DNA from: Gracilaria domingensis
Taxonomy: Eukaryota; Rhodophyta; Florideophyceae; Gracilariales; Gracilariaceae
Reading direction: 5' to 3'
DNA: 55,075 nucleotides
NCBI GenBank assembly: GCA_022539475.1
Contig: VCMS01000353.1
Span: forward strand, 1-55,075
The position numbers were made by a program, and so were the translations under genes. Positions 670 to 55,075 of this stretch are shown here, in pieces; positions within the stretch are counted from its first letter, which is position 1; the number at the start of each line of letters is the position of its first letter. The notes under the pieces were generated by a model that made no database searches, was not told where the DNA came from, and saw nothing but the letters and a program-made list of their open reading frames with translations.

Positions 670-1149
670 TGTTAGTGATTTTTCGTTAATTCTGGTCAGT
701 TTTTATTTGAATTGTTATATTGCTACGCTTTTAGTTATCTTAATGTTTTGATGCTTTTTTTGAATTCCCCGTGAGCTAGCAGCCGATTTGATACTAATAT
801 CCTCAGATCTTTGTGACATTATTGTCATTAATGTTACCAAGACATGTCACGTTTATGTCGGCCTCGTCAGTACGTCATGACTGACTTCATAGTTTCGTGC
901 CTTGCTGGAACTTCTACAAATGACACGTTTCAGAACTCTAAAGCTTCTAGACGACTCCACTGTCATTTCTACGCACAGTTTCTTACATATTCGACGCAAG
1001 GCATACTCTAGCACATAGTTTGAGGATATTCTAGAAATCGCGTTAGCGACCTTATTTTCGAAGTCGATTCTTCCAATATAACCCTGTCGAACGGCCGAGA
1101 CTCTCCCGCTCACCATTCGTTCACTCTCAACCTAGACCCAGTGTTCAAC
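670..1149 (+). repeat. element A 5' LTR
   Basis: It matches 7557-8073 along its whole length but is about 37 bases shorter. The difference is mainly scattered one- or two-base gaps, with some substitutions. The heat-shock-like motif, TATA and CRE-like site visible in the right LTR are disrupted here by these gaps. Confidence 0.9.
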
Positions 1150-1150
1150 T

Positions 1151-1168
1151 TGGTAGCCATCCAGTAAG
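1151..1168 (+). other. primer-binding site of element A
   Basis: TGGTAGCCATCCAG follows the left LTR directly. A start of TGGT fits pairing with the CCA end of a tRNA. The tRNA species was not determined. Confidence 0.5.
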
Positions 1169-1210
1169 TATTAGCGCTCATTGAAACTGAAGTGACCATC
1201 CAGCCTATGA

Positions 1211-3808
1211 TTGCTATACAAAATTCCCTATGTTTGGCATGAGCCACAGACGTCACTCTTACTGATGTTGATTCTGACCCATTTGGTGTTCCAGTACTCA
1301 ACCGCCGATCCCAAGTACCGCCTCATCGCCGTCGTTCTATCGAACACGGAAATATCCACGAACGCTCATCCCCCACCGCCGCCACCCCCCTGTCAACACC
1401 ACCAAACCCCTGTTTCCCTGCCTGTTCCACCTTGGAACCGAGTACACCACTTCTACACACCTCACCACCTCGTCACAGCTCGTCAACAACCCGATCCTTA
1501 CAGCCAATCCGATTTCAAGAACGATCGCTTACCGAAGGCTACCGAGGGTACTCCACGTCATCGGCTCCACATAGACGACCCTAATATCCATATTCCTTTC
1601 GTCGGCCACGATCGAACAGCACGGCTGTACGTAACCTTCACGTCGCTAGACCCCCAGTGTACGCACTCGTGAACTCCGTTTCAATAGCCGAGTGCAACTC
1701 CTCGCGAACATTTGTCTGGTAGCGACACCGCACAAGCTCCAGAACAAGCGCTCCCACCGCTGCTAGAATTGAGTTACTCATCTTCAATAATTGAGCATTA
1801 CGAGGATCACCGAGGTGACGCACACCAAGCAGCCATGTCAACAAGGAAAAACCGACGTCAACAGCTTATTTCAAGTAAATTATAAACGTAAAACACCTTG
1901 TGTTGACAAAATTCTAAAGAATCGGTTGTTCTACCTTTAAGCTACCTTTGTGGTTGTTCCAGTCCGCTACGTTGTATTATTTAGCATTTTTTCAAAGGGA
2001 AATCCGGGCCCCCGTACAGCTTACTATTTCCCAGTCGATTGCGCTTTGTAATTAACTGAAGAAACCTAATTAAACCACTCCGCTGCAATGCAATACAGCG
2101 AAGGAAAAATTGCCACCGGCGGCCGCCTAAAACCCACTAAGGGCCAGACGCGCGGCACTGCTTGTCTGCAACCCTGCCAAAATTGCAATTTTTTTTAAGT
2201 GGCAGCGTCGAGGCTTGATTTGCACTTTCGAAAATATTAGACATTTTATTTGGGCAACCCCGCCGATTGAGCAATTTCAAAGGTTCTCCGTTCGGCGGCA
2301 GCTCTTAACCATGACGACCCCCAACAACCCAGGCACATGAGTTACCACAGTGCCTGCAAGGGCAAATGATCCAGAGGAGCATGGCTCGCGGCGCTTGAAT
2401 GAACACGGGCTCAGAATGGAAAGCTTGTTTGAGCAAGAAGCGCACACGGAGAGAGTATCCGCTCTACGAGACCGTGCAGACTTCAGGTGTCCGTACGCCA
2501 GTAAGGCACACGCGATCCACGAATCCAAAGATAACAATGCCCCAACGTCACTGTGGAAGCAAAACTCATTGGTGACAGTTGGATCACCGTTATATGGTTG
2601 CATTATCTTCCGTGGAAGCCCCCGACACAAGCAGTAAATCGAGCGCTGCATAGTTACTGCAGGTGGCAGCTGCTCATGTGAGTGGTATCTTCGCGCCACA
2701 AGAGAATGGACTGGAGCTTGCAAACGCCTTAGGGAACTCTTTGAACATGCTTCAGAAAGCGGATTTACTATTGTCAACAAAGGAGAGAGATCTATGGCTC
2801 CGGGGAAACATAACATAAAAGGCAAGTGGAAAAGCAGTATACAAAGATGTTTAACGTCAATGTTCGGAAGGACTTTCTCAAGATGTGCTTGAAAATTCGC
2901 CAACATATCAGTATGGAAAGAGCATTGGATTAGCGGATCAGAGATATTAGCCGAGAAGGCTTTGAAAAGTCTGACAGTCTGGAAAGAATGCTTTGCACCA
3001 GTTGACTGTACAAAATCTTTGACTAATCTGCAATGAATAGACGCTGAGCGGTGGAATCTGCTTTCCTGAAGCGGGTTGACAGGCGCGGATTGGCAGGCAA
3101 GATCCTGGCGGCTACTGGGATCATCTCAGGACGCGGTACCCATGGATATGGAAACTATTGAAGCTGAAGAAGGTTTAACCAGGCGCAAGAGGCGAGAAGC
3201 GTGTCGATAAGGTTGGGGACTTCTGTTTCCGCTGTCGACACCTGGACACAGTGGCACTCGATAACAAGTGCCAAAAGAAAACTCCAGAGGAACTGCATCA
3301 GGGTCATCCTGAAGAACCCACGCAGTTCCACCGGACCGACCATTGCACCACTCGCGAAGATGTTCCATCGAAACGCAATCATTGACTAAGCCGCAGAACC
3401 CCGTACCATTGAAGTCTGGCAGATAAACATTCGTACTCAGAGAAAAACTATGAGCAATTGGAAGACATTAAGCTTCTTACTCTCAACGCTTTAGCGTCAC
3501 CATTTGGAAACCTCTCTGATTGGAGCTGACTCCTTGAATATGGTATTCATCAATGGCAGAAAGATGTATCGGCTCTGTTGTCGATAACGGTTCGCGAACA
3601 TCAGTTTTGTGTCCAAAGCCAGGTCTGCAAAACGCATGAAGATCCAACGATGACACTAGTTATGAAGGCGAAATTGGCCACGTTCCATTACTGTTATGGT
3701 GCTCCAGCGAAACGCCGGCAGATGGTAGTAGATATCCAGATTGAAGAACTTCGCGAGAAAAGAGACGCTCTTGCATATGTGAATGAACGGGATATCAACT
3801 CGATTTAG
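1211..3808 (+). pseudogene. element A gag and protease region, degenerate
   Basis: This is where gag and protease should lie, but only short open pieces remain. At 1211-1672 there is a proline-rich piece with a run of seven prolines. At 2350-2637 there is a charged piece. Near 3222-3285 there is a CCHC-like zinc knuckle beginning CFRCRHL, whose spacing would be normal if a single G in a GG run were missing. A last piece is at 3578-3808. No aspartic protease triad could be read with confidence. About 2030-2280 shows no coding character. Reading frames change repeatedly, so the region is either decayed or poorly assembled. Confidence 0.6.
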
Positions 3809-4216
3809 GAAAACGGACTGCTATACGATATAACTGCCCTAATCAACGGCACCAACGAACACAATGAAGATATCTTTTGTTCACAATTCCAGAAACCATG
3901 TTTCATGCACAAGCAAACATTCAGGAAGAACGAGAGAGGTTAATTCTGTCGAACACAATCAAGAAGTCAATAACAAGGAAGCTATTCTGTATTTGTTGGT
4001 AAGCGCTTCGGCCTTCCGAATGGAAGGAAACCTATAAGCAGGCGAGATGATCGATAAACTCAATAGGATACTACTTGAAGAGGTACATGAGCTCAAATAG
4101 TTGTCCAGATGAAATTACCAAAAAGAATTATCCCTCGGACCGAGAAACCAAGATTTTCATATCGAGTTATCCCTGAAGCAATCACCTCAGACAGAAGAGA
4201 GAAGGCGTATATCGAA

Positions 4217-6973
4217 TGTCAGATAAAGAGTTGAAAGAGCTAAAGAAGCAACTCCATGAACTTTTGGAACAAGGTTTTATTGACCTAGTTCAAGCCCTTG
4301 GGTGCCCCTGTTCTTTTCGCAGCAAAGAAGGATGGGAGCCTAAGACTTTGCATTGATTACCGAGCCCTCAATAAGTTGACCATCAAAAATAGTTACCCCT
4401 ATCCAAGGATTGATGATATTTTTGACCAACTCCGTGGCGCAAAAGTATTTTCGAAAATCGATTTAAGGTGGGGCTACCACCAAATTCGACTTTCTGATAC
4501 CTCCATTCCACTGACCGCTTTCAGAACTAGATATGGTCATTTGAGTTTCTTGTCCTACCTTTCGGCCTCACCAACGCACCCGCAAGCTTCATGAGCTTAA
4601 TGAACAATGTACTGAAGGATCATTTGGATAAATTTGTCCTGGTATATCTCGACGACATTCTTATTTACAGCAAAACTGTAGAGGAGCATGTAGAACACAT
4701 TAGAAAAGTATTCGACCAACTTCGTGCACACAAGCTGTATGGGAAGCTTTCAAAGTGTGAATTTCTAAAGAAGGAGGTTGAATACCTCGGGCATGTGGTT
4801 ACACCCGAAGGAATATCAGTAGAGAAACAAAAAGTGAAAGCCATCACAAATTGGGAAACACCGAAGAATAAGACCGATGTTCAAGCTTTTCTTGGACTTG
4901 TTAATTACTACCGACGATTTATTAAGAACTGCTCCGAAATATCAAAACCACTAACCGCTCTGTGTGGAAATAACCCATTCAAGTGGGGAGGGGATCAAGA
5001 AAACGCCTTCAAAAATCTGAAAGATGCAGTTTCAAGTACAACAGTGCTCCGTCATTTTGACCCAAAACTGCCTATCATCGTAACCACTGACGCATCTCAG
5101 TATGCTCTAGGAGCAGTATTGGAACAAGTAGAAAACGGTATTGCCCGACCTGTTGCATTTCATTCAAGAACCTTGAATCCAGCCGAGCAACGCTACGCCG
5201 CCCACGAGCGAGAACTTCTTGCAGTCGTAGACACGTTAAGAGTTTGGAGAGTCTACTTACATGGACAACGCTTCAAAGTGCGTACAGATCATTTTCCACT
5301 GAAGTATCTGCAAACACAGCCAAATCTTTCCCAACGTCAAGTAAGATGGCTCGAAAGGATCGTTCAGTTTGATTTCACTTTCGAACCAATCAAAGGAAAA
5401 TCCAACATAGTTGCAGATGCTCTCTCAAGATATCCTAAGCATGTTGAAGATCCGCTGGCTAGTAACCTCTCTCTATTAGATGAAGCAATCTCCAGAACCA
5501 ACCCGTTGAACTCTTTATCTCTTATTTGTGAAATATCCAAGAAGGATATGCGCGCATTCACTGATGGATATAAGAAGGACAACGAATTTTCAGCTGCTTA
5601 CCTGAATCCGGAACTTCCCTTTGAACGAAAAGGAAATCTTCTCTACTACAAGAATAAGTTATGTATACCGAGTGGGGAAATCAGAACTAAGTTTTTATTC
5701 GAGAATCATGATCTCCCTTCATCAGGACATATGGCATTTAAGAAGACATTAAGAAGAATTTGGAAATCTTACTTTTGGAAGAACCTGAGAAAGGACGTGT
5801 ACACCTACACAAAGACATGCCAGAAGTGTCAGGAGACGAAGCCAATTACCAAGAAGCCGCATGGATACCTCCAGCCATTAGAACCCCCATTGAAGAAGTG
5901 GTCTCAGATCACAATGGATTTCATTACTCCACTTCCACGAACTAAGTCTGGAAACAGTGCCATATATGTAGTAGTCGATCGCCTTTCGAAACTTATACGC
6001 ATCATTCCCACAACCAAGAATGTCACTGCTGTAGAAACAGCCAAGTTATATCTGGAGAATATCTATCGTCATCATGGACTTTCTGATTCCATAGTATCCG
6101 ATAGAGATTCAATATTTATGAGTACGTTCTGGAAGGAAGTATTTCGATCACTTGGCACAAAATTAAAGCCATCATCAGCATATCACCCACAGAAAGATGG
6201 ACAAACCGAAGTAATGAATAAGAAGATTGAAGAGATGATCAGATGTTTTGTCAACCACAGGCAGAATAATTGGGATGGATGAACACCTCATTCAATTCGA
6301 AGTTGCTTACAATTCTTCAGTCAATTCTACCACGTCATTTACCCCATTCTTTCTCACATACGGAGAGGAACCACGTGTTTTACCAATGGATGCAATCACT
6401 TCCCAGAATCAAGCCGCCTCTGAGTTTCTGACAAGTATTTCAGATGCTGTCAAGCTTGCTAGGAGCCAAATCAGCAAGATAAGCAAGTACTCAGAAAGCT
6501 ACTATAATCGGAAACGAACGCCTTGCGACTTAAAAGTTGGTGACTACGTCATGCTATCGACAAAGAATCTCAAGATGGACGAAACAGGCCAACGGAACAA
6601 ACTCGGAATCAAGTACTGTGGTCCATTCAGAATCACGAAACAAGTAAGCCCAGTAACCTTTCGACTTGATATAGGGACTGTCATGAAGCAAAGAAAAATA
6701 CATGACGTGTTTCATTGCCAACTACTCAGAAGATACCATGAAGACAATACCTTCAGAAGACCCCAGCCCAAGCCAACAGTCATCCAATTATCTGATGGAA
6801 CAGAAGAATATGATGTGGAAGCAATTCTTAATCATCGAAAACGGAAACGCAAGTCAGAATACCTTGTCAAATGGCTTGGTTATCGCGATCACGAAAATAT
6901 GTGGCTCCCTGAATCCGAACTCAAGAACTGTTTTGACCTCCTCGAGCGGTATAAAAGAAGCCACAACCTCTGA
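4217..6973 (+). pseudogene. pol: element A pol: RT, RNase H, integrase, chromodomain
   Basis: Domains in order: reverse transcriptase beginning near RMSDKELKELKKQL (4217), with CIDYRALNK and the catalytic YLDD near 4645; RNase H with TTDASQYALGAVL near 5090; integrase with an HHCC zinc-binding module (H..GH..CQKC near 5705-5830) and D, D, E residues in MDFITPLP, VSDRDS and DGQTE; then a chromodomain (about 6811-6960, EYLVKWLGYRDHENMWLPE). The chromodomain places it among chromoviruses, whose chromodomain guides integration to modified chromatin. Frame breaks lie near 4300 (a G missing from a GGG run), 4543 (a base missing after CATTT) and 6275. Length and order are normal for the family apart from these breaks. 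Confidence 0.92.
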
Positions 6974-7008
6974 ACATCTCCGGGCCCAGTAACCACCCAT
7001 CACCAACA

Positions 7009-7521
7009 ATGACGAACAACGGACAGCCGAACATCGCGAACAATCTGCAACTCGACAACGCCAGTCAGTTCTACAGTCGTATAGTTCTTGGGGGACGAAG
7101 GATGCTTACCTGGTTTGATGGTATTACCGATGAACTTTTCGATAGATTTCGTCTTGCATGGGTCTCATGTCATATTTGCTTTGCCTTTCTACAAGTTCGA
7201 GGACCATTTCTAACCCCAGAGAATGCGATCATGCTAAGAAAGCTATTCAAAGCTTATGAAGATGGCACACTTGAAGATATTCATGAAGAGTTCGTTCTAT
7301 TCCTATTCTCTTACCTGGTATCTCAGTTTGGTCACCTCTCGCCGGACCCCGGAGATACATTCTTGAATACAATTGAAAGTGCTATTCTACACATCGAGGA
7401 ATTTGGAGATAATACTGATCTTTCCATAACGTTTGAACCGCGTTCCGATATGGTTCTCTTCCCTAACCCTCCAGGACAGTTTGAAAATCATCCTATTCCG
7501 AATGGTACGCCCAACAACTAA
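7009..7521 (+). CDS. element A extra ORF, novel post-integrase domain
   Basis: An intact 170-codon ORF with an ATG start, 36 bases after the pol stop and in a different frame. It ends 35 bases before the 3' LTR. It has no transmembrane segment or signal peptide, so it does not look like an envelope protein. Its residues from LGGRRMLTW to SQFGHL align without gaps to the last part of element C pol (53553-53800). The shared residues include GG, two tryptophans, GPFL, LRxLF, EF, VS and GHL. The tail is proline- and asparagine-rich. The function is unknown. Conservation in two divergent elements suggests a real role in replication or targeting. Confidence 0.8.
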   Translation: MTNNGQPNIANNLQLDNASQFYSRIVLGGRRMLTWFDGITDELFDRFRLAWVSCHICFAFLQVRGPFLTPENAIMLRKLFKAYEDGTLEDIHEEFVLFLFSYLVSQFGHLSPDPGDTFLNTIESAILHIEEFGDNTDLSITFEPRSDMVLFPNPPGQFENHPIPNGTPNN

Positions 7522-7542
7522 CGAGTCGGGACGACTCTCCTT

Positions 7543-7556
7543 AATGGGGGAAGTGA
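7543..7556 (+). other. polypurine tract of element A
   Basis: AATGGGGGAAGTGA lies immediately before the right LTR, as expected for the plus-strand primer. Confidence 0.7.
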
Positions 7557-7768
7557 TGTTAGGATTTCGTTAATTCTGGTCATGTTTTTATTTTAATTTG
7601 TTATATTGCTACGCTTTTAGTTATTCATTTAATGTTTTGATGCTTTCTTTGAATTCCCCGTGATCTAGCGATCCGATTTGATACCCTAATGATCCTCAGA
7701 ATCTTTGTTTGACATTAGTTGTCATAATGTTACCAAGACATGTCACGTGTGATGTCTGCCTCGTCAGT

Positions 7769-7776
7769 TGACGTCA
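7769..7776 (+). promoter_or_regulatory. CRE/ATF-like palindrome in element A LTR
   Basis: TGACGTCA, the classical bZIP palindrome, lies 70 bases upstream of the heat-shock-like array. The left LTR has TACGTCA at the same place. Confidence 0.4.
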
Positions 7777-7838
7777 TGACTGACTTCATAGTTTCGGTGC
7801 CTTGCTGGAACTTCTACAAATGGACACGTTTCAGGAAC

Positions 7839-7855
7839 TTCTAGAAGCTTCTAGA
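7839..7855 (+). promoter_or_regulatory. heat-shock-element array in element A LTR
   Basis: TTCTAGAAGCTTCTAGA reads TTC-nn-GAA-nn-TTC-nn-GA, the inverted-pentamer pattern bound by trimeric HSF. A further TTCAGGAA lies at 7830-7837, one base out of phase. It sits about 150 bases upstream of the TATA box. Confidence 0.6.
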
Positions 7856-7991
7856 CGACTCCACTGTCGATTTCTACGCACAGTTTCTACACTAATTCCG
7901 ACGCAAGGGCCAGTACTCATAGACACATTAGTTTGAGGGATATTCTAGAAATCTGCGTTAGCGACCTTATTTTCGAAGGTCCGATTCTCCA

Positions 7992-7997
7992 TATAAA
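7992..7997 (+). promoter_or_regulatory. TATA box of element A LTR
   Basis: TATAAA in the context CCATATAAACCC, about 80 bases before the LTR end. This gives a plausible U3/R boundary just downstream. Confidence 0.55.
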
Positions 7998-8073
7998 CCC
8001 TGGTCGACTGCCCGAACTCTCCTCGGCAGTCACCATCGTTCACGTTCTCAACCTCAGACCCAGTGTTCTAACA

Positions 8074-34948: not shown

Positions 34949-35568
34949 AGTTTGTCGTACTGAGCACCACTCTGTCACTAATCAAATGACAAGTTGTTCG
35001 GGCACTGGCGCACCGTTAAGAAACGGTAAGCTCAGGAAGATTCAGGGACTCAGCAACTTTCTGGAATATTCTAGAGTATACAAGAAAGTCCTGCAACACC
35101 CTCTGAAATAACTGGAAGGTTCTGGATGGACTCCAGAGAGTATCGAGATTTCCTGAAAAACGGCTTTAGTCACTACATTTAGGAAACGGGACGGTCTGGA
35201 ACTTTATGAATGACTTGTTTAAAAGTCTTTTGACTATTCTAAAAGTTCTAGAAGCTCTCGAATAACAGATTAGGAGGACACTTGTGGCTAGGAGCTTCGG
35301 TGGAGGAACTAGTAAGGCAATAGTGAGGCGATAAAATGTCTTGAATTAATCTTGCGATAGAATAGAGATTGAAAATGCGTAGCAATAGTTTCTACGATTT
35401 GGGACTTTCAAAAAAAGCTAAAATCGAAGGTAGCAGTCTTGGATATATGCAAAAGTGTGAATGAGTTAACTTATTTCCGGTGGTTTATAACTACACACCA
35501 TGTACTACCCCGCCACATAAACAGCGACACTTGCTGACCAACCTTCTCTTTGATCTTTCAATTATTTT
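34949..35568. other. spacer between solo LTR and element B
   Basis: No ORF. It contains the heat-shock-like element below and a second partial match, TTCTAGAAGC, at 35246-35255. Confidence 0.4.
35059..35076. promoter_or_regulatory. heat-shock-element-like array
   Basis: TTCTGGAATATTCTAGAG reads TTC-nn-GAA-nn-TTC-nn-GAG, three perfect units and one near-perfect unit in phase. There is no gene next to it in either direction within 500 bases. Confidence 0.45.
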
Positions 35569-36415
35569 TGTAGTGCAAAACCGTGACGCGAACGGACAAA
35601 AACCAGCCGCATACGCGGAAGCACTCAAGGAGTTCAGCCTTGCTCCCTGTGAGGGCTGGCGCAGCGGAAGAGCTCTCCGATGGGGTCGACACGTGCCGGG
35701 CGTAACTCCGGGCGACCCGTTCCTGACTTACAGACGGAGGTCGGGGGGAAATACCAGCCACAGATGTGGAAGATCCGAGACAGCGGTGCGGGCAAATGTA
35801 GGGGCAAACGAAGGAAAAGAGCCGTGTATACGGACACAGGCCTTGTAATAGAAGGGATAAGAAAAGAAGAAACAAAGCAAAAGAATTAATAACCTGATAA
35901 CCGGGCGGAGAACAGCCGTAAGAACGGGAAAAACAAGAACAAAACAAGACACCAAAATAAACGACAATGTCCGTATGTAAACGGTGGCTCCTCAGAGACG
36001 CGAGGCGGATAAGCACTGCCGTATTCGACACGGACGCTCTCCGAAGAGTCGCGGTCGCGTGCGGGCGATAGACTTAGAGCCGAACACTCGGTTGACTTTA
36101 CTTCCCAGAAGGATGGCCAGTCGGCCGGCCCTTAAGTAGGGATCACTACAGCATCTAATCAAACAAATATCCCGGCACACATCCGGCCACAGCCACACAC
36201 GTGTACCGTGCCCCGTCGGCTCAAAGGGGCAATCCGCAAAAGCGGCACTATCCACCACGTGGACACCTGATGTGCCCACAACCAGGCCAACAAATAAACA
36301 TTCTCCCACCAAGGGCTATCCTATCCTCACCATCTGAGACACCATTCTGGCATACCGGCACATCTGCGATTAGCAGCACGAGCGAGGCCGGAGTTCCCGG
36401 GGTCATTGCACTACA
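35569..36415 (-). repeat. element B 3' LTR
   Basis: TGTAGTGCAA...TTGCACTACA, with 10-bp inverted termini. Preceded on the minus strand by the purine tract GAGGAGGGGGAGA. Confidence 0.92.
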
Positions 36416-36428
36416 TCTCCCCCTCCTC
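36416..36428 (-). other. polypurine tract of element B
   Basis: On the minus strand GAGGAGGGGGAGA ends exactly at the 3' LTR. A second similar tract, GAGGAGGGGGAAGAGA, lies near 39735-39750, where a central tract could be. Confidence 0.7.
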
Positions 36429-42663: not shown

Positions 42664-42697
42664 AGAAAAAAAACCGCTGAAGCGGACCCGCCGATCT

Positions 42698-42715
42698 TTC
42701 TAAGTCGGGAGACCA
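42698..42715 (-). other. primer-binding site of element B
   Basis: On the minus strand TGGTCTCCCGACTTAGAA begins three bases after the 5' LTR. It would pair with a tRNA ending in GGGAGACCA. The tRNA was not identified. Confidence 0.45.
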
Positions 42716-42718
42716 CTT

Positions 42719-44958: not shown

Positions 44959-46304
44959 AACCGCAATAACATCAGTTACTCTACGCTGGTCACTGCGACA
45001 CTTGACTAGGCGGCCGAAGGCCGCCTTCCCTTGTTTGTGTATAATAATATATATAACCAGGAGCGATCCAAACGCCATTTTTGGTCGCCCTCGCACGATT
45101 ACACGACTACAGCTGCAGGTGCAGGGGTACATGAAGGCAGAAATGGTGTTAAATATGAAATTAATTGTTCTCGTGAAAGTTAAGAGCCGTGGACGGCGGC
45201 TACTGCGCCTTCTTAAACCGTACAGGGCCAGGGTAGACAACATGAAGAGCGCCGCAATGGAAAACATCTGTCAGGCACCCATTCTCTCGAGCTCTTTTAC
45301 TTTTGAGCAGCTATATGTGTAGGACTGCTATGAGCTGTAACGATGCAAGCAAGTTAAGCATCATTGTTTTCATGCATTGCATCAGTCTCGTTCTTGGAGA
45401 TTGGGCAATCCCATATTTTGAACTTCTGTTGGAGAGAATGATGTTTCCTTGCCTCATGAAATTTGATTCCTTATCAATTCGTACATTAAGTGAAACCTGT
45501 ACCCACCTTATAACCCTAATATGAAACAAAATCTCTACCCCTGCAAAAGCCCCTAAAATCAGGGTTCTTTTTCAAATCTGTACCCACCCAAAACCCCCTA
45601 AAATCGCACCCCGCTAAAAAAACCTCTAAAATCTGGGTACCTTGATGCCTTCCAGAGGCAACATTTGCTGACACGTGTATTTGGATTTTTAGGCAAAAAT
45701 CTATGCGAAGGGTACAGATCACCGATTAATATACCATTACGTCCAGAGTGATAAAGCTTACCCCTTCGAAAACCCTTCGAAGCATATAGAGCGCAAATTC
45801 TTCGAGTTTCTATGAACGAATCCGTTCTTGGTCCATACCCGTGTATTATCGCTTTGCAGAGAAGTACATGTGGCCCGTCAAACGGTACACGGACAGGTGT
45901 GCGTGTCTACACTCCTGCGTTGTGCCCAACGCAGCGGTAATACAGAATATAGTTTAAAAATGCTTTATTATAGTTAATCCTATCTTAGGTTTAGTTAGTT
46001 TTCTACGCAGAATCTACCTTGCGTGTGGCCAGGAGGCGCCGCACTACAAGCAGGGCGACATGAGATTGTCTACTTAAGTGGCAGAGAGCGCTCCAACGCT
46101 GACCACCCGACCTCATCGGCTGTCAATTGCCAAATTCGTGGTCACCCACAGGAGGCGCCTGCGCTTGCGCAAATACACGTGCATTCCACGCTGTGTACTG
46201 CGTTGCGTAGGCGCCCCCTGTGGCGGCATATGCGCTTAAAGTATCTACCACCTACGCCTCTTATAGGCTAGTACGGTAGATACAACGCATCCATTGGCCA
46301 AGCC

Positions 46305-46345
46305 AACCGTACCGTCGATTCCCGCCTGGAATCGACGGTGCGGTT
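46305..46345 (+). promoter_or_regulatory. 18-bp inverted repeat next to the TATA box of element C
   Basis: AACCGTACCGTCGATTCC (46305-46322) and GGAATCGACGGTGCGGTT (46328-46345) are inverted arms matching at 17 of 18 positions around a 5-base loop. The right arm ends three bases before the TATA-like site. The same structure is at 54429-54469 in the 3' LTR. Confidence 0.7.
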
Positions 46346-46348
46346 GTG

Positions 46349-46357
46349 CATAAAAGG
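46349..46357 (+). promoter_or_regulatory. TATA-like box of element C
   Basis: CATAAAAGG, repeated at 54473-54481 in the right LTR. It lies directly after the inverted repeat and before the C/T-rich leader. Confidence 0.55.
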
Positions 46358-46984
46358 GCCGGAGCAGTCGCCTCCGACTCAACTCCGGCCAGACCACTTC
46401 CCTTCGACGACCTTCCCCCCTACCCCACCACAACCTTCCAACCTCTCTCCTTTTCCCTTTGTCGTCCTCAACCTTTCCTCATCCCCTACTTCTCTCTCTA
46501 CTTCTCCCCTTGGCGGCCTGGTCTCACCGCCCTCCCTCGCTCACTGCCACTCACACTGACCCTCTGTCTGGGCTCGTCCTGTGTGAGTAGGCAAAGCGTC
46601 TGCACCACCCTTCCATTGGGTTAGCCTTGTGCAGGCGTGACTCTGCCTTTCATTATCCGCTTTGTTTGGCCTTTCTTGTCTCTTTTGTTCCCTTCGTTGG
46701 TTTCTTTCGCTGTTGTTGGTCTATCTGCCATTCTGTCTTGCCTGAACTACCGTTGTTGTTGTCATCTTCGTTTTTTCCCCGTTTCTTGCTGTTTGGCGGC
46801 CTTCTGCTGCCTGCATCCGTTCTATTGCTTCCCGTTTCGGCCTTGGTCCCTGGTTTTGCTGGTTCTTTCGCGTTGCGATTCTGTTCCTCACATAGTGTTG
46901 CTTTGCACCTGTTGTTGCTAGACGCACTGTGTGATACAGCGTAAGGTTGTCCTTAACCTACGGCCCTGAGGCAATCGTTCAAGA

Positions 46985-47053
46985 GTAAGTTGTCTACAGC
47001 TACTCTTTTGGCATTTTGTGTGACTACTAACGTTTCGTTTGTTTCACATCAAG
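46985..47053 (+). other. probable intron in the element C leader
   Basis: Donor AAGA|GTAAGT at 46985, perfect branch site TACTAAC at 47025-47031, acceptor CACATCAAG (47053) or TGCCAAG (47060). It has the same architecture as the intron at 31183-31242. The zinc-finger frame downstream has no ATG of its own, which fits a spliced start in an upstream exon. Confidence 0.6.
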
Positions 47054-47060
47054 TGCCAAG

Positions 47061-47484
47061 GTCTATCGTTTCATCCAGCGAGTATTCGTCCGTGGTCGAT
47101 CCGGACGAGCGTATAGAAGAAGTCCCCGATCCCGTTCCTCAGATAAAGAAGTCGGCTGTTCAGCCTCTTGACGGGCCACGCGAGCGCCACATCTTTCGTG
47201 TAGCCCACCAGAAGGAGAAGCGCCGTCGTAACCCCCCGCCACGTAAGCAAATCCTAAAGCGCTGCCGCGTCTGCGACATTAAGGTTCAGAGTCAACGCCA
47301 GCTTGAAGTTCACCAAGCAGGCCGACGCCATCGTAGAGCCGTACGTCGCGCCAACTACACCGAGCAGGACATCCACTGCGAGGTTTGTGACATCAAGTTC
47401 TCCGAAGCTCACGATCTGCGTGTGCACTACAGAAGCCGTCGCCATCGTGCGACCCTTAGGAAGAAGAACAATACTATCTATTAG
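47061..47484 (+). CDS. element C leader ORF with two U1/matrin-type zinc fingers
   Basis: An open frame without an ATG, probably an exon behind the intron ending near 47053-47060. An acidic stretch (SSVVDPDERIEEVPDP) leads to a basic one (HQKEKRRRNPPPRKQILKR). Then come two C2H2 fingers, CRVCDIKVQSQRQLEVHQAGRRH and, after a spacer, CEVCDIKFSEAHDLRVHYRSRRH. The C-2-C pair, long helix and H-x5-H spacing are those of U1-like/matrin-type fingers, which bind RNA or double-stranded RNA. It ends at TAG 47482-47484, 285 bases before the gag ATG. It lies between LTR and gag, an unusual position. The function is unknown: RNA packaging, splicing control or interference with silencing are guesses. Confidence 0.6.
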
Positions 47485-47769
47485 AGCACAGGTCTCTCTT
47501 TTCATTGTCCAGTTGTGACACATTTCTATTCATATCTCATTACATATATTATCCTTGTTTGTTCTTCTTTATCTTCTCGCCTATCGTTTGGTATCCCTCT
47601 TCTGTTCTTGTGTTCGTGCTTTGTTGTTTGGCTTCTGCCGCACTCTATCTACGTAAGCTTATATTTGGCTAGTGCTTCTTCGTCCGATTGGACTGGTACT
47701 CTACGAGAGCAAACTTTATTTTCATTGTTTTTGCCCCCTTTGGCTGTAACCGCCGGCGCCATCACAAAA

Positions 47770-50748
47770 ATGGCGTTTTCATGGTACTCTCGCCGAGGTG
47801 CCCTTGGCCCCGATACTATGGACACCTCGACGCCTCTCTTCGACGGATACAATTCCGATGTTCGTCGATTTCTCTTTTTCTTCGAGAACGTTGCCACCCG
47901 TGGAAAGCCTGATGAGGAGCGTTCCTCCGAAATCTTGGGCTTCCTAAGTGGTGACGCCTTCGATCATTATTATAATAATTTCTCTGTAGATGGCGTGCTC
48001 ACCCCGAACGCGGCCAACTACATATCAGTTAAGAAGTCCCTGCTCGATCGCTTTGGCGCTGCTGAGGAACCCGAGGAGTACATCCGAGAAGCTGTGACTG
48101 CCCGTTTGGACTACGGTGATCTCCTTGGTTCCCTCCAGCGCATGGACGCTTGCTTCGACAAGGCCGAGTTCAACGCGAAGGCCAAGTTCGGCCTTCTCCG
48201 TAAAGCGGTTATGGAGTACGCAGACCTAGCTCAGTTTGTGATATTCCGCGGAGCAAGCGACTATAAGTCGTTGAAAGACCTCATCAAATCCTTTGTGGCC
48301 GGCAAAAAGGCCCTCGGAGCAGGTGGTTCACTGGCGTTTATGCCTCCTCCGAAGAAAGTGTTACAAAGGAGGCCCGTCGACCCTTCTGATAGGGATCCCA
48401 CTGCAGACAAGGTGGATCAGCTAGCTAGTCAGCTTGCAGAACTCACTCTCTTGATGAAGAAGAAGTCAGGACCACCTCCGAAGGCTGATGGAGAGCAAGT
48501 TTGTGGCTACTGTCAGAAGCCTGGTCACTTTTCTACTCGCTGTCCACAGAATCCGCATCGCGATACGCGTTGTGGGGGTTGTGGAAAGATGGGACATTCC
48601 ATCGCAACGTGTTGGAAGCGCCATTCGGAAAAGAAGGTCCGTTTCGATGCCGAAAATCAGAAAGAAATCCCGGAAGTTCCCAGACCCAACCAAGTTTCTG
48701 TAGTCACCGAGGATGACGTTCAGGATCGCGAGACTGTAGCGATGGCCAAACGAGCCGCTGATGGCGCCCCATTGCCAAAGCAGGCCCGCCTGGAACATCG
48801 GGTTGGTGTCAAGGAGCTTCTGAACCCAGCAAGCGACACCCCATTTCGCTTGATTCGCTCAGCTACGCGTAATCGATCCGGGAAGCCTAAGAAGGCCTCC
48901 ACAAAGAAGCTCTCTGGTAAGTCAATGCTCCAGGAGCACGCCGGAAAGTATAACGTAATGGAGGAGCTCGCGAATGCCCCGACCGGGCTCACATTCGGTC
49001 AACTCATTCGCGGGGACGCCGATGCGGCCAAGAAAGATCTGCGTCGAATCATCTCTGGCCGTTCAACGACCAGAAAGGTCAATGCGACCCAGGTCGAGCG
49101 TGAAAACTCTCGTCTTAAGGTTGTGCCTATTACAGTCTATGGGACCATGACCCAAGCCCTCTTGGACTCTGGCGCTGTCCCGAATCTAATTTCAGCAGAA
49201 CTAGCGGACCATCTGCTACTGACACCGAACCCCACTGAAAGGACGATTAAAGTAGCTGATGGCAATGTTGCCCGCATTCGTGGTACTCTAGAGGGCGTTC
49301 CTGTAAGGTTCGATGACCTCCGAGTATCCCTCGAGTTTCTTGTTATCGAGAAGCCCCCCTTCGATGTAATCATCGGGAACCCCACGCTAGAAAAGCTGCA
49401 TGCCTGTATCGATCTTGGTACACAAGAAGTCACCATGAGTTACAACAAGAAGCACGTCGTTATAGGACTCGACTCCGATCGTTCCGGATTAGAAGCATTT
49501 GTCCCGTTGTCTGAGACAGATAGCGAAGATTTCACGTCAGACTCTGATGCTATCCCGTCTGACTCTGAAGATGAGTCGGAGGACTTTGCTAACCTCCCCC
49601 TTCCAAAGCAGCGAACAACTGGTGGCGCCGAAGTGACCCTAGTGGCAGTAATGGAAAGGGATGGGGACGCAGGATCCCAGGATGGCGAAGAGGAGAACGA
49701 TGGTGAGGAAGAACCCGCCAATGTGACAGCGCAGCCCACCCAAGCCGGGCCGTTCGAAGGACCTCAAGTATCTGACCAAGCCCGTCGACCGACTCAGGCT
49801 GAAGATTCCAACGGCCCTAACTTCACCTGGCGTACCATCGGGACTCAGATCCATCTGGATAGTTTGACCGCGGAGCGTGGGGAGAACCCTCATGCAAATA
49901 ATATGCATATTGCCGGACCCGATGGCCCACAAATTCCTCCAGAGGGAGAAAGGGTGGCAGTCGGACCAGCACTGCGTCAGCAATCCCAGCTGATCTCCCA
50001 GTATGATGATGACGAGGATCGACGATTCGAAGACGCGGAGGAAGAAGTGCAGGCAGATCCCCCTGTCGAAGAAAGGTCCGGACCCAATCCCTCCTCCTTC
50101 CAGAGCGAGTCTACGGATACCAGCGTACAGCCAGAAGATGTGAATGTCGTGATTCCTACAAGTATTGCACCCAGAGCTAATAACGCCAGCGAGGACAGTG
50201 AAGTCCGGCCTCCTGACGATGGGCCCGTAGGTGAAAGCCCGGCGGAGTTCCCAGACGGTAGTGACGATGAGGACGACTCCTCACCGGAGGAAGTAGACCT
50301 CATTGGCTCACCACTCTACCGCGACTCTGACCTTACCATCCCGATCAGAGACGAAGTAGTTCTGCTTCCTTTAGCCGAAGGACAGTCAGTTACTGACTTC
50401 TTGGACGTGCGGGTTCAATTGCGACATCCAGTACCGTCACCCGCGCGTCCCCCTCATCTAGAAGCACAGAACTTACCGCTCAACCGCGTAGGAATGCTGG
50501 AGGACGACGACTCCGGCGGTTATGTCATATCATTTGAAGAAGAACTACCTCCGGACGAAATCGACGCCCGGACCCCGGGAGATGATGAACATTCACAAGA
50601 CCCAAGCCGCGACGAAGAAGTTGTGGCCGAGCCTACGTGCCCAGCGCAAGACATTGAGTATTCTCTGCAAGATCCAATTGCGCAAGATTCACTCGGTCGC
50701 ACGCTCGACCGACGTGATTACCCCCCCACACCAACAAGGAGGAGGTGA
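47770..50748 (+). CDS. gag-pro: element C Gag-protease, 992 residues
   Basis: ATG chosen at 47770 because of its good context (AAAAATGGCG) and because coding character begins there. The open frame extends upstream to 47515. Capsid-like region: residues about 20-200. Two perfect CCHC knuckles, CGYCQKPGHFSTRC (from residue 245) and CGGCGKMGHSIATC. The aspartic protease has ALLDSGAVPNLIS (D near residue 466) and FDVIIGNPTLEKL. After the protease come about 400 residues of acidic, probably disordered sequence (SEDFTSDSDAIPSDSEDESED and similar) before TGA at 50746-50748. Having protease in the gag frame and pol in -1 is allowed in Ty3/gypsy. The long acidic tail is unusual. Confidence 0.88.
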   Translation: MAFSWYSRRGALGPDTMDTSTPLFDGYNSDVRRFLFFFENVATRGKPDEERSSEILGFLSGDAFDHYYNNFSVDGVLTPNAANYISVKKSLLDRFGAAEEPEEYIREAVTARLDYGDLLGSLQRMDACFDKAEFNAKAKFGLLRKAVMEYADLAQFVIFRGASDYKSLKDLIKSFVAGKKALGAGGSLAFMPPPKKVLQRRPVDPSDRDPTADKVDQLASQLAELTLLMKKKSGPPPKADGEQVCGYCQKPGHFSTRCPQNPHRDTRCGGCGKMGHSIATCWKRHSEKKVRFDAENQKEIPEVPRPNQVSVVTEDDVQDRETVAMAKRAADGAPLPKQARLEHRVGVKELLNPASDTPFRLIRSATRNRSGKPKKASTKKLSGKSMLQEHAGKYNVMEELANAPTGLTFGQLIRGDADAAKKDLRRIISGRSTTRKVNATQVERENSRLKVVPITVYGTMTQALLDSGAVPNLISAELADHLLLTPNPTERTIKVADGNVARIRGTLEGVPVRFDDLRVSLEFLVIEKPPFDVIIGNPTLEKLHACIDLGTQEVTMSYNKKHVVIGLDSDRSGLEAFVPLSETDSEDFTSDSDAIPSDSEDESEDFANLPLPKQRTTGGAEVTLVAVMERDGDAGSQDGEEENDGEEEPANVTAQPTQAGPFEGPQVSDQARRPTQAEDSNGPNFTWRTIGTQIHLDSLTAERGENPHANNMHIAGPDGPQIPPEGERVAVGPALRQQSQLISQYDDDEDRRFEDAEEEVQADPPVEERSGPNPSSFQSESTDTSVQPEDVNVVIPTSIAPRANNASEDSEVRPPDDGPVGESPAEFPDGSDDEDDSSPEEVDLIGSPLYRDSDLTIPIRDEVVLLPLAEGQSVTDFLDVRVQLRHPVPSPARPPHLEAQNLPLNRVGMLEDDDSGGYVISFEEELPPDEIDARTPGDDEHSQDPSRDEEVVAEPTCPAQDIEYSLQDPIAQDSLGRTLDRRDYPPTPTRRR

Positions 50749-53700
50749 TTCTAGAACGGATCTCTCATCTCCCAAGGGATAGACGGGTGGACCTCCTCGC
50801 TGTTCTGGATAACTTGAATGTCATAGCATGGTCCTTGTATGATCTTAGGCCCTCTGACGTGCCGGTAACGCACAGGTTTGACCTCAGTGTCGAGACCCCA
50901 ATTCATTCGAAGGTCCGAAGGCTACCCCCAAAGCATGACGACGTTGTTCGGAAAGAGGTCGACAAAATGTTGTCCGCCGGGATCATCAAGCCGTCCACCT
51001 CTCCTTGGTCCTTCCCAGTTGTCATCGCACATAAGAAGGATGGAAAGCCCCGGTTCTGTGTCGACTATCGGGGTCTGAACCAGGTCATGACGCCCGACAG
51101 GTGGCCCCTGCCAAACATGGAACAGATTTTTGACGATTTGGGTGGTTGTTCGTTCTTCACGACCCTAGACCTTTTCTCCGGATACTGGCAGGTGCGCATG
51201 GCCCCTGACTGCAAAGAAATGACGACTTTCGTTTGTCGTCAGGGAACCTTCCAGTTTGAAGTCATGCCTTTTGGTCTCATGAATGCCCCAGCCACGTTTC
51301 AAAGAATGATGGACGCGGTCCTTCATGGGGTGGAGTTTGCTCGCGTCTATATAGACGACGTTGTCATCTTCTCGAGAAGCCTGGAAGAACATTTGTACCA
51401 CCTAACCAGGGTGCTCGAGATCCTTGCAAGTCATGGTCTGAAGATAAAAATATCCAAATGTGATTTTGCACAACCCCGTATCAAACTGCTTGGTCACGTC
51501 ATCAACAAGGAAGGCACTTCGGTTGATCAAGACAAGATCGACGTCATCCAAAAGGCCCCCGAACCATCGACGGTAACCGAGCTCCGAAGTTTTCTCGGTC
51601 TAGCCAGTTATTATCGAAGGTTCATAAAGGATTTCGCAGATACGTCAGCAGTATTGCATGCTGCCACTACAGGGAAGGGAAAGCTGAATTTCACCAATGA
51701 GATGAAGACAGCGTTTAATGATCTAAAGGGAAAGTTAGTATCCCCGCCGGTCTTAGCATTTCCCGACTTTGAGAAGCCTTTTAGAGTTGAAACCGATGCT
51801 TCTTCAGTCGCGCTTGGTGCCGTTCTGTCACAAAAGAAAGAGGACGGAATGTATCACCCAATTCAATTTGCCAGTCGCACGCTTAATGCCGCCGAGCGAA
51901 AGTATTCTACTTGCGAGAAAGAGGCCCTAGCCGTGGTCTTTGCCTTGAAGAAGTTTCGCATGTATCTACTCGGAGGTCTCCCCTTTGAGCTTGTTACGGA
52001 CCACCAAGCTCTGAAGTATGCATTCCAAAAGAAGGACATTCACGGGCGCCTAGCCCGATGGATGGACCTGCTAGCGGAATACGAGTTCGTTATAGTCTAT
52101 AGATCTGGCGATAAGAATCGGGCTGCCGACTATCTCTCTCGCTTTGCCGTTGGGGATCCACCGGAGCCGGATGATGACGTGTCTGTTGTACTGAATGCAA
52201 CGGACGAGGTCTATGACTTGGAGCCCTTCTGCGCGCACATCAAGTCGTACCTTGCCGCCTTTTCTTTTCCTGAAGAAGACCCTAAGATCCGCGCTTTGGT
52301 TAAGAGGAATGCGAAGAAGTTCTTCCTTTGGGAAGGTCTTCTCTATCGCCGTACCAAGAAAGGATTAAGAGTGGTACCCTCTGTAAGCAAGCGCCGTGGC
52401 ATCCTCTCATCCTTTCATGATGACATAGGACATTGGGACTTGGAGGCTACTAAGGATCTGGTCCAGTTCCGATTCTGGTGGCCTGGAATGTACCCCGACA
52501 TCGTTTCATATGTTCGCAGTTGTGATGGGTGTCAGTTCACAACACCCCTGCTTAAGTACCGGCCAGGACAAAGAGCCCCATTGACTGGTCTATTTCATAC
52601 ATTCTCTGTGGACTTCGCCGGTCCTCTTCCGGCTACCAGGAATGGCAACCGTTTTGCTCTGATTGGTGTAGAACACATAACAGGATGGCCTATTGCCGCG
52701 GCCTACGGTAATCAGACCTCTACCACCGTCATTCACTTTGTTCGATCTCAGATCGTTTCCCCGTTTGGTTCCCCGCTGACGATCGTGTCCGACAACTTCA
52801 GTTCCTTCAAAGCCAAGGCAGTCGAAGCATACATGGAAAGTAAGAAGATATCCCTCAAGCCCACCATGGCCTATGCCCCTATGTCTAATGGCCGGGCTGA
52901 AAGAATGGTTGGAACCATCAAGAAATCGATTGCCAAAACAATCTTCAATAAGGGACAAGAATGGGATGAAGCTCTCGAGCAGATAATTTACGGATACAGG
53001 AGGCGCCGGCTGGGTGGCGGGTTTTCTCCTTTTGAGCTCATGTATGGCACGGTCCCACGGATGAGCTCAGACGACCTACCCCCTCTCATCGTAGATCCAA
53101 CCCCCACTAATCGTCATCATGAACTACTTGCAAATTCCGCAGGCAGAGCTTCCAGAGTTCTATCTCAACCCAATCGACAAGACGACCCCAAGTCCGGGCA
53201 CCGGTTCAACGTCGGTGATGAGGTCTTGGTGATACATGGGAAGGCTCTGAATCCCAACGTGAAATGGCCTGCCTTTCAGTCAAAATTCTACGGACCCTGT
53301 AAGGTGGTTAAGGCCAGGCACCCCCGATATGTCCTAGTGTCCCCTCATAATCGTTACACTAGAGAAGGGGTCCACGCCCGCCGGCTCAAGCGGTATCATC
53401 GCCGACCAGTTCATCTGCAGGACGAGGTGGTAGCCACTATTACGGAAGGCGAAGACACCCCTGTCCCATATCCCACTCAGATCACTGTAATGCCACTCCG
53501 CGTTGACTACAATATCCTCACTGCACCCCACCTCTCGTGTCACTTTATCATTGGAGGGAAAAGCATACATTCATGGCTTAGCCCTTTGAACGTCTCTATC
53601 CCAGAGGTGGAAAGGGTTACCTGGACGCTGACGCATGCCTCACTCGCCCTGTTCTCAATCTCGGGCCCGTTCTTGAGTCGTAGAGGAGGATCTATCTTAA

Positions 53701-53945
53701 GAACATTATTTCGACGTGTGCACCAGAACTACGGCAGCAATATCGAGCCAGAATTCGCGGTATATCTTTACCACCATGCAGTCTCCTTGCATGGGCATCT
53801 CCCAGAATCGCAATTCTACATACAAGAGACTCAGGACCATATTTCGCACTATGCTCGCACAGGAATCGCTCGGATACTCAGCTACACCCCCGACCCAGAG
53901 AAGCTAGCAGTACCCTTTCTCTTCCACTATACCACCGAGAATTAG
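50718..53945 (+). CDS. pol: element C Pol: RT, RNase H, integrase, extra C-terminal domain
   Basis: Open in the -1 frame to TAG at 53943-53945. Residue numbers count from GTG 50745. RT: residues about 90-270, with FCVDYRGLNQV, LDLFSGYWQVRMA and the catalytic YIDD (202-205). RNase H: VETDASSVALGAVLSQ, then ERKYSTCEKEALAVV and VTDHQAL. Integrase: zinc module HDDIGH...CDGC (about 558-595) and D, D, E in SVDFAGPL, VSDNFSSF and NGRAERM (about 622, 681, 716). A GPY/F-like module follows (KFYGPCKVV...RRLKRY). There is no chromodomain. Instead the last 140 residues carry the domain shared with the element A ORF at 7009-7521. All catalytic residues are present, so it may be functional. Confidence 0.93.
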   Translation, partial: LPPHTNKEEVILERISHLPRDRRVDLLAVLDNLNVIAWSLYDLRPSDVPVTHRFDLSVETPIHSKVRRLPPKHDDVVRKEVDKMLSAGIIKPSTSPWSFPVVIAHKKDGKPRFCVDYRGLNQVMTPDRWPLPNMEQIFDDLGGCSFFTTLDLFSGYWQVRMAPDCKEMTTFVCRQGTFQFEVMPFGLMNAPATFQRMMDAVLHGVEFARVYIDDVVIFSRSLEEHLYHLTRVLEILASHGLKIKISKCDFAQPRIKLLGHVINKEGTSVDQDKIDVIQKAPEPSTVTELRSFLGLASYYRRFIKDFADTSAVLHAATTGKGKLNFTNEMKTAFNDLKGKLVSPPVLAFPDFEKPFRVETDASSVALGAVLSQKKEDGMYHPIQFASRTLNAAERKYSTCEKEALAVVFALKKFRMYLLGGLPFELVTDHQALKYAFQKKDIHGRLARWMDLLAEYEFVIVYRSGDKNRAADYLSRFAVGDPPEPDDDVSVVLNATDEVYDLEPFCAHIKSYLAAFSFPEEDPKIRALVKRNAKKFFLWEGLLYRRTKKGLRVVPSVSKRRGILSSFHDDIGHWDLEATKDLVQFRFWWPGMYPDIVSYVRSCDGCQFTTPLLKYRPGQRAPLTGLFHTFSVDFAGPLPATRNGNRFALIGVEHITGWPIAAAYGNQTSTTVIHFVRSQIVSPFGSPLTIVSDNFSSFKAKAVEAYMESKKISLKPTMAYAPMSNGRAERMVGTIKKSIAKTIFNKGQEWDEALEQIIYGYRRRRLGGGFSPFELMYGTVPRMSSDDLPPLIVDPTPTNRHHELLANSAGRASRVLSQPNRQDDPKSGHRFNVGDEVLVIHGKALNPNVKWPAFQSKFYGPCKVVKARHPRYVLVSPHNRYTREGVHARRLKRYHRRPVHLQDEVVATITEGEDTPVPYPTQITVMPLRVDYNILTAPHLSCHFIIGGKSIHSWLSPLNVSIPEVERVTWTLTHASLALFSISGPFLSRRGGSILRTLFRRVHQNYGSNIEPEFAVYLYHHAVSLHGHLPESQFYIQETQDHISHYARTGIARILSYTPDPEKLAVPFLFHYTTEN
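50721..50727 (+). promoter_or_regulatory. candidate -1 ribosomal slip site (C7)
   Basis: In the gag frame the codons read TAC CCC CCC ACA, so the seven Cs form an X-XXY-YYZ heptamer. It lies in the 31-base window (50718-50748) where both frames are open. Alternatively pol could restart at GTG 50745-50747, which overlaps the gag TGA. Confidence 0.5.
53500..53942 (+). other. shared post-integrase domain at the C-terminus of element C Pol
   Basis: It runs from about IIGGKSIHSWLSPL to the end. The core from GG to GHL has the same length (83 residues) as in the element A ORF. Hand alignment without gaps gives about 24 identities, including both W residues, GPFL, LRxLF, EF, VS and GHL. Confidence 0.75.
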
Positions 53946-53992
53946 CCCAGTACTTACGACGCCCGGCGTAGCGTCGTTTGGGTTTGGTGGTG

Positions 53993-55075
53993 TGTGGCCC
54001 GTCAAACGGTACACGGACAGGTGTGCGTGTCTACACTCCTGCGTTGTGCCCAACGCAGCGGTAATACAGAATATAGTTTAAAAATGCTTTATTATAGTTA
54101 ATCCTATCTTAGGTTTAGTTAGTTTTCTACGCAGAATCTACCTTGCGTGTGGCCAGGAGGCGCCGCACTACAAGCAGGGCGACATGAGATTGTCTACTTA
54201 AGTGGCAGAGAGCGCTCCAACGCTGACCACCCGACCTCATCGGCTGTCAATTGCCAAATTCGTGGTCACCCACAGGAGGCGCCTGCGCTTGCGCAAATAC
54301 ACGTGCATTCCACGCTGTGTACTGCGTTGCGTAGGCGCCCCCTGTGGCGGCATATGCGCTTAAAGTATCTACCACCTACGCCTCTTATAGGCTAGTACGG
54401 TAGATACAACGCATCCATTGGCCAAGCCAACCGTACCGTCGATTCCCGCCTGGAATCGACGGTGCGGTTGTGCATAAAAGGGCCGGAGCAGTCGCCTCCG
54501 ACTCAACTCCGGCCAGACCACTTCCCTTCGACGACCTTCCCCCCTACCCCACCACAACCTTCCAACCTCTCTCCTTTTCCCTTTGTCGTCCTCAACCTTT
54601 CCTCATCCCTACTTCTCTCTCTACTTCTCCCTTGGCGGCCTGGTCTCACCGCCCTCCCTCGCTCACTGCCACTCACACTGACCCTCTGTCTGGGCTCGTC
54701 CTGTGTGAGTAGGCAAAGCGTCTGCACCACCCTTCCATTGGGTTAGCCTTGTGCAGGCGTGACTCTGCCTTTCATTATCCGCTTTGTTTGGCCTTTCTTG
54801 TCTCTTTTGTTCCCTTCGTTGGTTTCTTTCGCTGTTGTTGGTCTATCTGCCATTCTGTCTTGCCTGAACTACCGTTGTTGTTGTCATCTTCGTTTTTTCC
54901 CCGTTTCTTGCTGTTTGGCGGCCTTCTGCTGCCTGCATCCGTTCTATTGCTTCCCGTTTCGGCCTTGGTCCTGGTTTTGCTGGTTCTTTCGCGTTGCGAT
55001 TCTGTTCCTCACATAGTGTTGCTTTGCACGCTGTTGTTGCTAAGACGCACTGTGTGATACAGCGTAAGGTTTTGT
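53993..55075 (+). repeat. element C 3' LTR (truncated by window end)
   Basis: Same sequence as the 5' LTR with small homopolymer-length differences (for example CCCC versus CCC near 54606). Preceded by GGGTTTGGTGGTG, a G-rich but not purine-pure tract. Confidence 0.92.

Follow-up and report, generated by a model that had tools for sequence, protein, structure and literature searches.

The window, that is, the whole stretch of 55,075 nucleotides that was analysed, contains two Ty3/gypsy retrotransposons, elements A and C, each of which carries downstream of its integrase a domain that we refer to as the tail. Their main features are as follows:

670..8073, + strand: element A, a Ty3/gypsy chromovirus with an LTR pair and a 5-bp target duplication
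4531..6282, + strand: open frame of element A Pol, with RT, RNase H and N-terminal integrase
6239..6973, + strand: C-terminal part of the element A integrase, carrying SH3_Tf2-1 (GPY/F) and a chromodomain (Pfam)
7009..7521, + strand: type-1 tail gene of element A, encoding 170 aa from its own ATG
7545..7556, + strand: polypurine-like tract of element A, TGGGGGAAGTGA, immediately 5' of the 3' LTR
45869..55075, + strand: element C, a Ty3/gypsy element without chromodomain, with an LTR pair of which the 3' LTR starts at 53993 and is cut by the contig end
47485..50748, + strand: open frame of element C Gag-protease, with CCHC and protease-like motifs recognised by eye
50718..53945, + strand: element C Pol, 1075 aa, a single open frame for RT, RNase H, integrase and the fused tail
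53490..53942, + strand: type-2 tail domain of element C, fused to its integrase end

Element A is flanked by the target duplication GTCCT (665-669 and 8074-8078), and its LTRs start with TGTTAG (at 670 for the 5' LTR and at 7557 for the 3' LTR), the 3' LTR ending with CTAACA at 8073; the parts aligned by self-BLAST (681-1146 and 7565-8068) are 87.2% identical. Its Pol frame is broken between the 4531-6282 and 6239-6973 pieces, the second of which matches SH3_Tf2-1 (PF24626) at 8.5e-14 and the chromodomain (PF00385) at 2.2e-16, the latter at 6809-6958. With its LTRs, pol order and chromodomain, element A is a Ty3/gypsy LTR retrotransposon and a chromovirus. The Pol stop (TGA, 6971-6973) lies 38 nt 5' of the tail ATG at 7009 and in a different frame, while the frame of the tail is open from 6955 up to its TAA at 7519-7521. 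The tail is the final gene of the element, ending 23 nt 5' of the polypurine-like tract, and the LTR match starts 37 nt past the last coding base in all eight A loci, including that of the window. The same A insertion (window 7009-9018) is also found on contig C153 with an identical tail and an identical 950-bp 3' flank, such that C153 and the contig of the window are probably alleles or the result of a duplication.

The matched parts of the element C LTRs (1.08 kb) are 99.5% identical, and copies elsewhere indicate that this LTR extends beyond the part matched in the window. Its integrase gives an rve match of 8e-7, under the curated Pfam cut-off, and its RT-RNase H-integrase region aligns colinearly with that of element A (34% identity over 590 aa), but no Chromo match was found in its integrase end (Pfam; window 52500-53498 and 53349-53942). 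Judged by its LTRs and pol order, element C is thus a Ty3/gypsy LTR retrotransposon, but not a chromovirus. The earlier note had placed the start of its tail at 53500; a tail is indeed there, but it starts slightly earlier, at about residue 925 of Pol (53490), and makes up the last 150 or so residues. "Internal" sequence found after the 3' repeat in 22 of 30 loci had suggested that C copies occur in tandem, an idea that was dropped once this sequence turned out to be the remainder of the LTR, which is missing at the contig end of the window. As a separate observation, tails recur at constant spacing on contigs C94 (4965/13090/21215; 8125 bp), C244 (66285/74316/82347; 8031 bp), C110 (862/8889; 8027 bp), C498 (13402/21507; 8105 bp) and C27 (111543/120510/129482; about 8970 bp), and the C tail spacing matches, within one base, the distance of 8124 between the two LTR starts in the window (45869-53993). 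These evenly spaced tails look like head-to-tail arrays with common LTRs, although they may instead reflect an assembly error.

Two other features of the window were recorded. A third LTR-like pair (35567-36424 and 42717-43575), made of 859-bp direct repeats that are 99.1% identical, encloses minus-strand ORFs at 39818-41740 and 41377-42699 that have no Pfam match at E 0.01. In addition, a minus-strand ORF at 11203-11931, next to another one at 11935-12708, matches the N6_N4_Mtase DNA methylase family (PF01555, 8.5e-13) in this repeat-rich contig.

The two tails had been aligned by hand in the earlier note, without a gap from GG to GHL over 83 residues and with about 24 identities, and our recount gave 24. 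BLASTP aligns them at 26% identity over 135 aa (E 2e-16 for this one comparison), and a phmmer search with the A tail against the six-frame translated genome (77.9 Mb, 680 contigs) finds C-type tails, including that of the window, at E 1.7e-10. Profile comparisons (hhalign) matched the type-1 profile with that of the C/D/E2 tails, which belong to lineages described below, at a probability of 99.2 (E 1.8e-19, 134 columns), the A-type with the E1 profile at 8e-16 and the C/D/E2 with the E1 profile at 3e-26. When searched against the window ORFs, a type-1 profile made without C picks out the C Pol at 5.6e-12, and an E1-tail profile built without A and C picks out C at 5.9e-14 and A at 2.4e-10, while none of the other 376 of the 378 window ORFs (of at least 60 aa) was found at E <= 1 with either profile. 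These comparisons show that the A and C tails are homologous and belong to one domain family of about 130-170 aa. A chance or compositional resemblance between unrelated tails might be suspected from an identity of just 26%, but separate profiles and intermediate sequences concur, leaving that explanation with a negligible probability. The tail might instead derive from a different protein of these elements, which is disfavoured in so far as no further match appeared among the 378 window ORFs. Across 19 tail sequences, only four residues never vary (W, W, H and G), and no catalytic or nucleic-acid-binding signature was recognised in the tails by eye.

Searches in Pfam, NCBIfam, PHROGs and PDB sequences gave no credible match, in agreement with the earlier note, which had recognised no known family. 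In Pfam, no family matched the A and C tails at E 10 or one F and one G tail (stand-alone copies described below) at E 0.1, and 16 tail members gave single weak matches only (E >= 0.26). The best PHROGs match had an E of 0.03, and searches of the PDB by sequence profile gave nothing credible (best E 0.13, 0.17 and 0.37). An NCBIfam membrane-anchor family, matched by 4 of the 16 members at a best E of 0.0034, was judged spurious. The lack of a membrane segment, on which the earlier note had based its view that the tail is not an envelope, holds for all 16 tails, whose maximal Kyte-Doolittle means over 19 residues range from 0.76 to 1.41. Among 5.8 billion predicted proteins, the only tail homologues were P0001 and P0002, both of type 1 and unnamed, and the C tail had no homologue there (105 candidates); one search of viral contigs, with the C/D/E2 alignment as the query, found no tail. 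The titles and abstracts of open-licence articles on post-integrase or accessory domains of fungal and red-algal LTR elements did not describe it either. Thus, the tail family appears to be new, while accessory ORFs common to several retroelement lineages are a known kind.

The genome holds 14 phycobilisome-linker matches, 4 of them on contig C680 and 10 spread over eight other contigs, as well as 11 chlorophyll-binding matches; the host is therefore most likely a red alga, and a fungal origin, suspected at first, was rejected on the strength of these genes. Four tails were then used as queries across the genome, with about 150 candidates scored of the 325-387 per search, so that the counts given here are lower bounds. 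This survey showed that more Ty3/gypsy lineages than A and C carry a tail and that tails fall into two subtypes, type 1 (as in A) and type 2 (as in C), split at 100/99 in the tail tree. A separate type-1 ORF is found behind the Pol of A-type chromoviruses, and at least 29 of 36 full-length A tail copies are stop-free (at least 85% identity; 150 matches scored of 344 candidates). A second chromovirus group carries type-1 tails in loci L055, L063 and L064 and type-2 tails in L078, L079 and L081, which overlap or closely follow the chromodomain frame where it is readable. Altogether, a separate tail ORF near or overlapping the chromodomain frame is seen in A, L055, L061-L066 and L078. Fused type-2 tails are found in C, D (L040) and E, the E loci carrying two consecutive tails, E1 then E2, in 12 of the 12 that were fetched (some with broken frames); E1 and E2 are 31% identical. 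Chromo matches were above the cut-off in L055, L078 and L081, and there was none in D. Across 10 loci, the tail ATG is found either downstream of the Pol stop, by 38 or 39 nt, or upstream of it, by 19 or 37 nt, and in more than one frame; since these distances and frames vary, separate initiation of the tail fits better than a fixed frameshift. The Ty3/gypsy loci L072, L073 and L077, which represent other lineages, carry an integrase and a chromodomain (that of L077 under the curated cut-off, at 20.2 versus 25.1 bits), but no tail was found in the DNA fetched for them (five profiles, E <= 10), indicating that Ty3/gypsy elements in general do not need one. At another locus (L075, C3:28600-30900), a chromodomain lies on a short ORF of its own, about 131 aa long, that has many copies in the genome; at this one locus that was read, there was neither a Pol-like ORF beside it nor a match to the tail profiles.

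Tail and integrase are discordant within the second chromovirus group. L055 and L078 have integrases with 80% identity over 195 aa, but their tails, of type 1 and type 2 respectively, are only 18.6% identical. In the integrase tree (16 rows, 324 columns), L055, L063 and L064 are joined with L078, L079 and L081 at 100/99, and a clade of A with L055 is rejected (p-AU 2.6e-5), as is one of all type-1 carriers when L063 and L064 are added (5.8e-4). In the tail tree (18 rows, 157 columns), L055 instead groups with the A-type tails at 100/99, and a group of L055, L078 and L079 is rejected (p-AU 5e-7). The groups submitted to these AU tests were picked after pairwise identities had been seen, and long branches (C, L081 and E1; L077) blur finer placements, but the L055/L078 conflict is independent of those branches. 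Pairwise identities also disagree in both directions (those of the C, D and E integrases being from frames cropped of tails): the tail diverges more than the integrase between C and D (30% versus 57%) and between L078 and L081 (37% versus 66%), whereas it is the more conserved of the two between D and E2 (76% versus 68%) and between D and L080 (88.5% versus 75%). Within families, dS values, which rest on two regions per element, differ between the integrase end and the tail for A-L061 (0.245 versus 0.97) and A-L066 (0.53 versus 0.17), and between the integrase and the tail for L042-L049 (0.04 versus 1.3 for E1) and L043-L045 (0.05 versus 2.1 for E2). These mismatches agree with the trees, although they may in part come from ordinary template switching or inter-element recombination. 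Plain vertical descent from an ancestor of the chromovirus and C lineages, with losses elsewhere and no exchange, would fit the similar divergence of A and C in Pol (34%) and in the tail (26%), but it is very hard to reconcile with the tree conflict (AU p from 5e-7 to 5.8e-4, even for groups chosen with the identities in view) and with the dS mismatches, recombination possibly contributing to the latter, and we regard it as highly improbable. On these phylogenies, the tail behaves as an exchangeable accessory cassette that moved between element lineages.

Such exchange modifies one argument of the earlier note, which had taken conservation of the domain across different contexts as a sign of a selected function. 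Since further lineages carry the tail and the trees show exchange between lineages, its presence in different contexts comes partly from transfer and is not simply a matter of retention in two lineages; selection itself is supported by omega values (Nei-Gojobori; rough figures, as many pairs are saturated, with dS undefined or above 2). In most between-subfamily comparisons with a defined dS, tail omega was 0.02-0.26. The A tail gave 0.23, 0.25, 0.17 and 0.18 against L065, L066, L061 and L062, respectively, the L078-L079 pair gave 0.13, and E1 and E2 tails gave 0.05-0.15 and 0.02-0.07 at a dS often above 2, leaving out L041, a decayed E1 copy whose pairs range from 0.23 to 0.85. Other close pairs were higher (L061-L062, 0.61; L063-L064, 0.73; L065-L066, 0.42). 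The integrase end, in the same kind of comparison, gave 0.18-0.35, with one very close pair at 0.63. By this measure, the tail is a protein under purifying selection.

Tails also occur as uninterrupted stand-alone ORFs of both subtypes, which we call F (type 1; L052, L053, L054 and L067) and G (type 2; L082, L083 and L084). No Pol was found near stand-alone tails in 10 of 10 loci examined (tblastn with A and C Pol pieces, E <= 0.01), the DNA fetched upstream of the ORF reaching up to 4.0 kb (L059) and less in the others. Since these copies lack a nearby Pol, a tail gene need not adjoin an integrase. The F tails show omega values of 0.12-0.24 at dS 0.73-0.94, and 0.31 for L052-L053. Both kinds are found in repeated DNA: L053 and L059 have 2.4 kb in common at 92%, the 2.4-kb G unit is found at three more places at 98% and at one at 81%, and three of the seven F-like loci fetched are broken (L056, L057 and L058). 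F units carry imperfect tandem repeats of about 1 kb upstream (L059:2480-3360, L053:68-952 and L058:184-877) and a 1.06-kb downstream piece that also occurs elsewhere without the ORF; this piece was considered as a possible LTR, but neither a polypurine tract nor a paired copy was seen. At L085 (C179:156700-160400), a tandem array of units of about 1298 bp (about 99% identical in the part read) contains a decayed type-2 tail relic, which rules out an intact gene cluster; the array is apparently a satellite born from the tail module.

Concerning the function of the tail, we rank first a role as an adaptor acting with the integrase complex, a reading that we favour tentatively, at somewhat less than even odds. 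The tail would be a soluble protein-protein interaction module working with the integrase complex or with its carrier particle; in C, D and E it would travel within Pol, whereas the chromoviruses would translate it separately, from a start codon downstream of Pol. It could then link the pre-integration complex with a host factor, for nuclear entry or chromatin docking, and would complement the chromodomain without replacing it. Integrase is named as the partner mainly because the tail is fused to it in some lineages and is a neighbouring separate gene in others. Several points weaken this choice: stand-alone copies exist without a nearby Pol, L072, L073 and L077 have no tail, separate ORFs could have Gag, RNA or host silencing as their partner, and removal of a fused tail by the protease would reduce the fusion to co-delivery. 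The 3' flanks of eight A loci (seven distinct sites) showed no common target sequence, which is a weak test of site choice. Ranked second, and less likely though still a serious candidate, is an accessory protein that would counter host silencing or restriction in trans. Other elements carry anti-silencing or accessory genes, and such a role would account for fast divergence, subtype swapping and the usefulness of stand-alone copies; it is in line with the excess divergence of the tail in the C-D and L078-L081 pairs, with tails of opposite subtypes on closely related integrases and with the low omega of stand-alone F tails. That explanation does not, however, account for why the tail is fused to the integrase end in C, D and E, and the D-E2 and D-L080 tails, closer than their integrases, are unlike a steady arms race.

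The stand-alone genes raise another explanation, in which F and G are original or domesticated host genes that were captured by retrotransposons (or the reverse), their host function being primary. Uninterrupted ORFs of both subtypes, the absence of Pol from all 10 loci examined by tblastn and the purifying selection on F speak for it, but F and G sit in repeated DNA with broken F-like copies and nest inside the two element subtypes (in an unrooted tail tree), so that non-autonomous mobile units fit equally well; we consider it unlikely and rank it third, behind the integrase adaptor and the anti-host protein. A role in assembly, or an envelope-like role in particle formation or spread, may also be thought of for a third gene at this position, since env is normally located between pol and the 3' LTR. 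The A tail lies exactly there. In bdelloid elements, moreover, the third ORF can be an env-like gene or one of another kind (PMC5408684). Yet none of the 16 tails has a membrane-like segment, and those of C, D and E are fused to the integrase end, which makes such a role more doubtful still than a host-gene origin. Returning to the integrase adaptor, a bolder version of it would see in the tail a modular domain of a new class, associated with integrase and serving targeting or entry, that red-algal retrotransposons trade as a cassette, with interchangeable subtypes that may redirect or license the same integrase and stand-alone copies that may be trans helpers or domesticated restriction factors directed against their elements of origin; we offer this as a speculative and rather unlikely proposal.

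Retroelement accessory genes are where elements meet their host, and the two deep tail subtypes found on closely related integrases (the L055 and L078 groups) amount to a natural swap experiment. The tail domain would also be useful as an annotation marker for red-algal transposons, and for separating their stand-alone tail copies from host genes.

Among known systems, the chromodomain of chromoviruses (PF00385) resembles the tail in being located at the integrase C-terminus of Ty3/gypsy elements, but the tail has no Chromo sequence match; since A, L055 and L078 contain the two next to each other, the tail comes in addition to the chromodomain and is no variant of it. Yeast Ty integrases have C-terminal targeting domains, which the tail would resemble in concept, as an extension at the end of integrase able to dock on a host factor; no common target site was seen in the 3' flanks of the eight A loci. 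The C. elegans LTR retrotransposon Cer1 also has an accessory protein, CERV, which is likened to the tail here by its description. A close parallel is with the ORF3 genes of bdelloid rotifer LTR retrotransposons, which encode GDSL esterase, DEDDy exonuclease, coiled-coil, and membrane or env proteins, and of which one type can be found across different retroelement groups, a pattern attributed to exchange from a pool of specialised ORFs (Rodriguez et al. 2017, PMC5408684). Compared with the ORF3 genes as described there (PMC5408684), the tail differs in matching no known family, in being also fused to Pol and duplicated, and in its host, most likely a red alga. As in those elements (PMC5408684), it is an extra ORF besides gag and pol that is common to different lineages. 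In element A it is placed between pol and the 3' LTR, and its distribution among lineages conflicts with the integrase tree.
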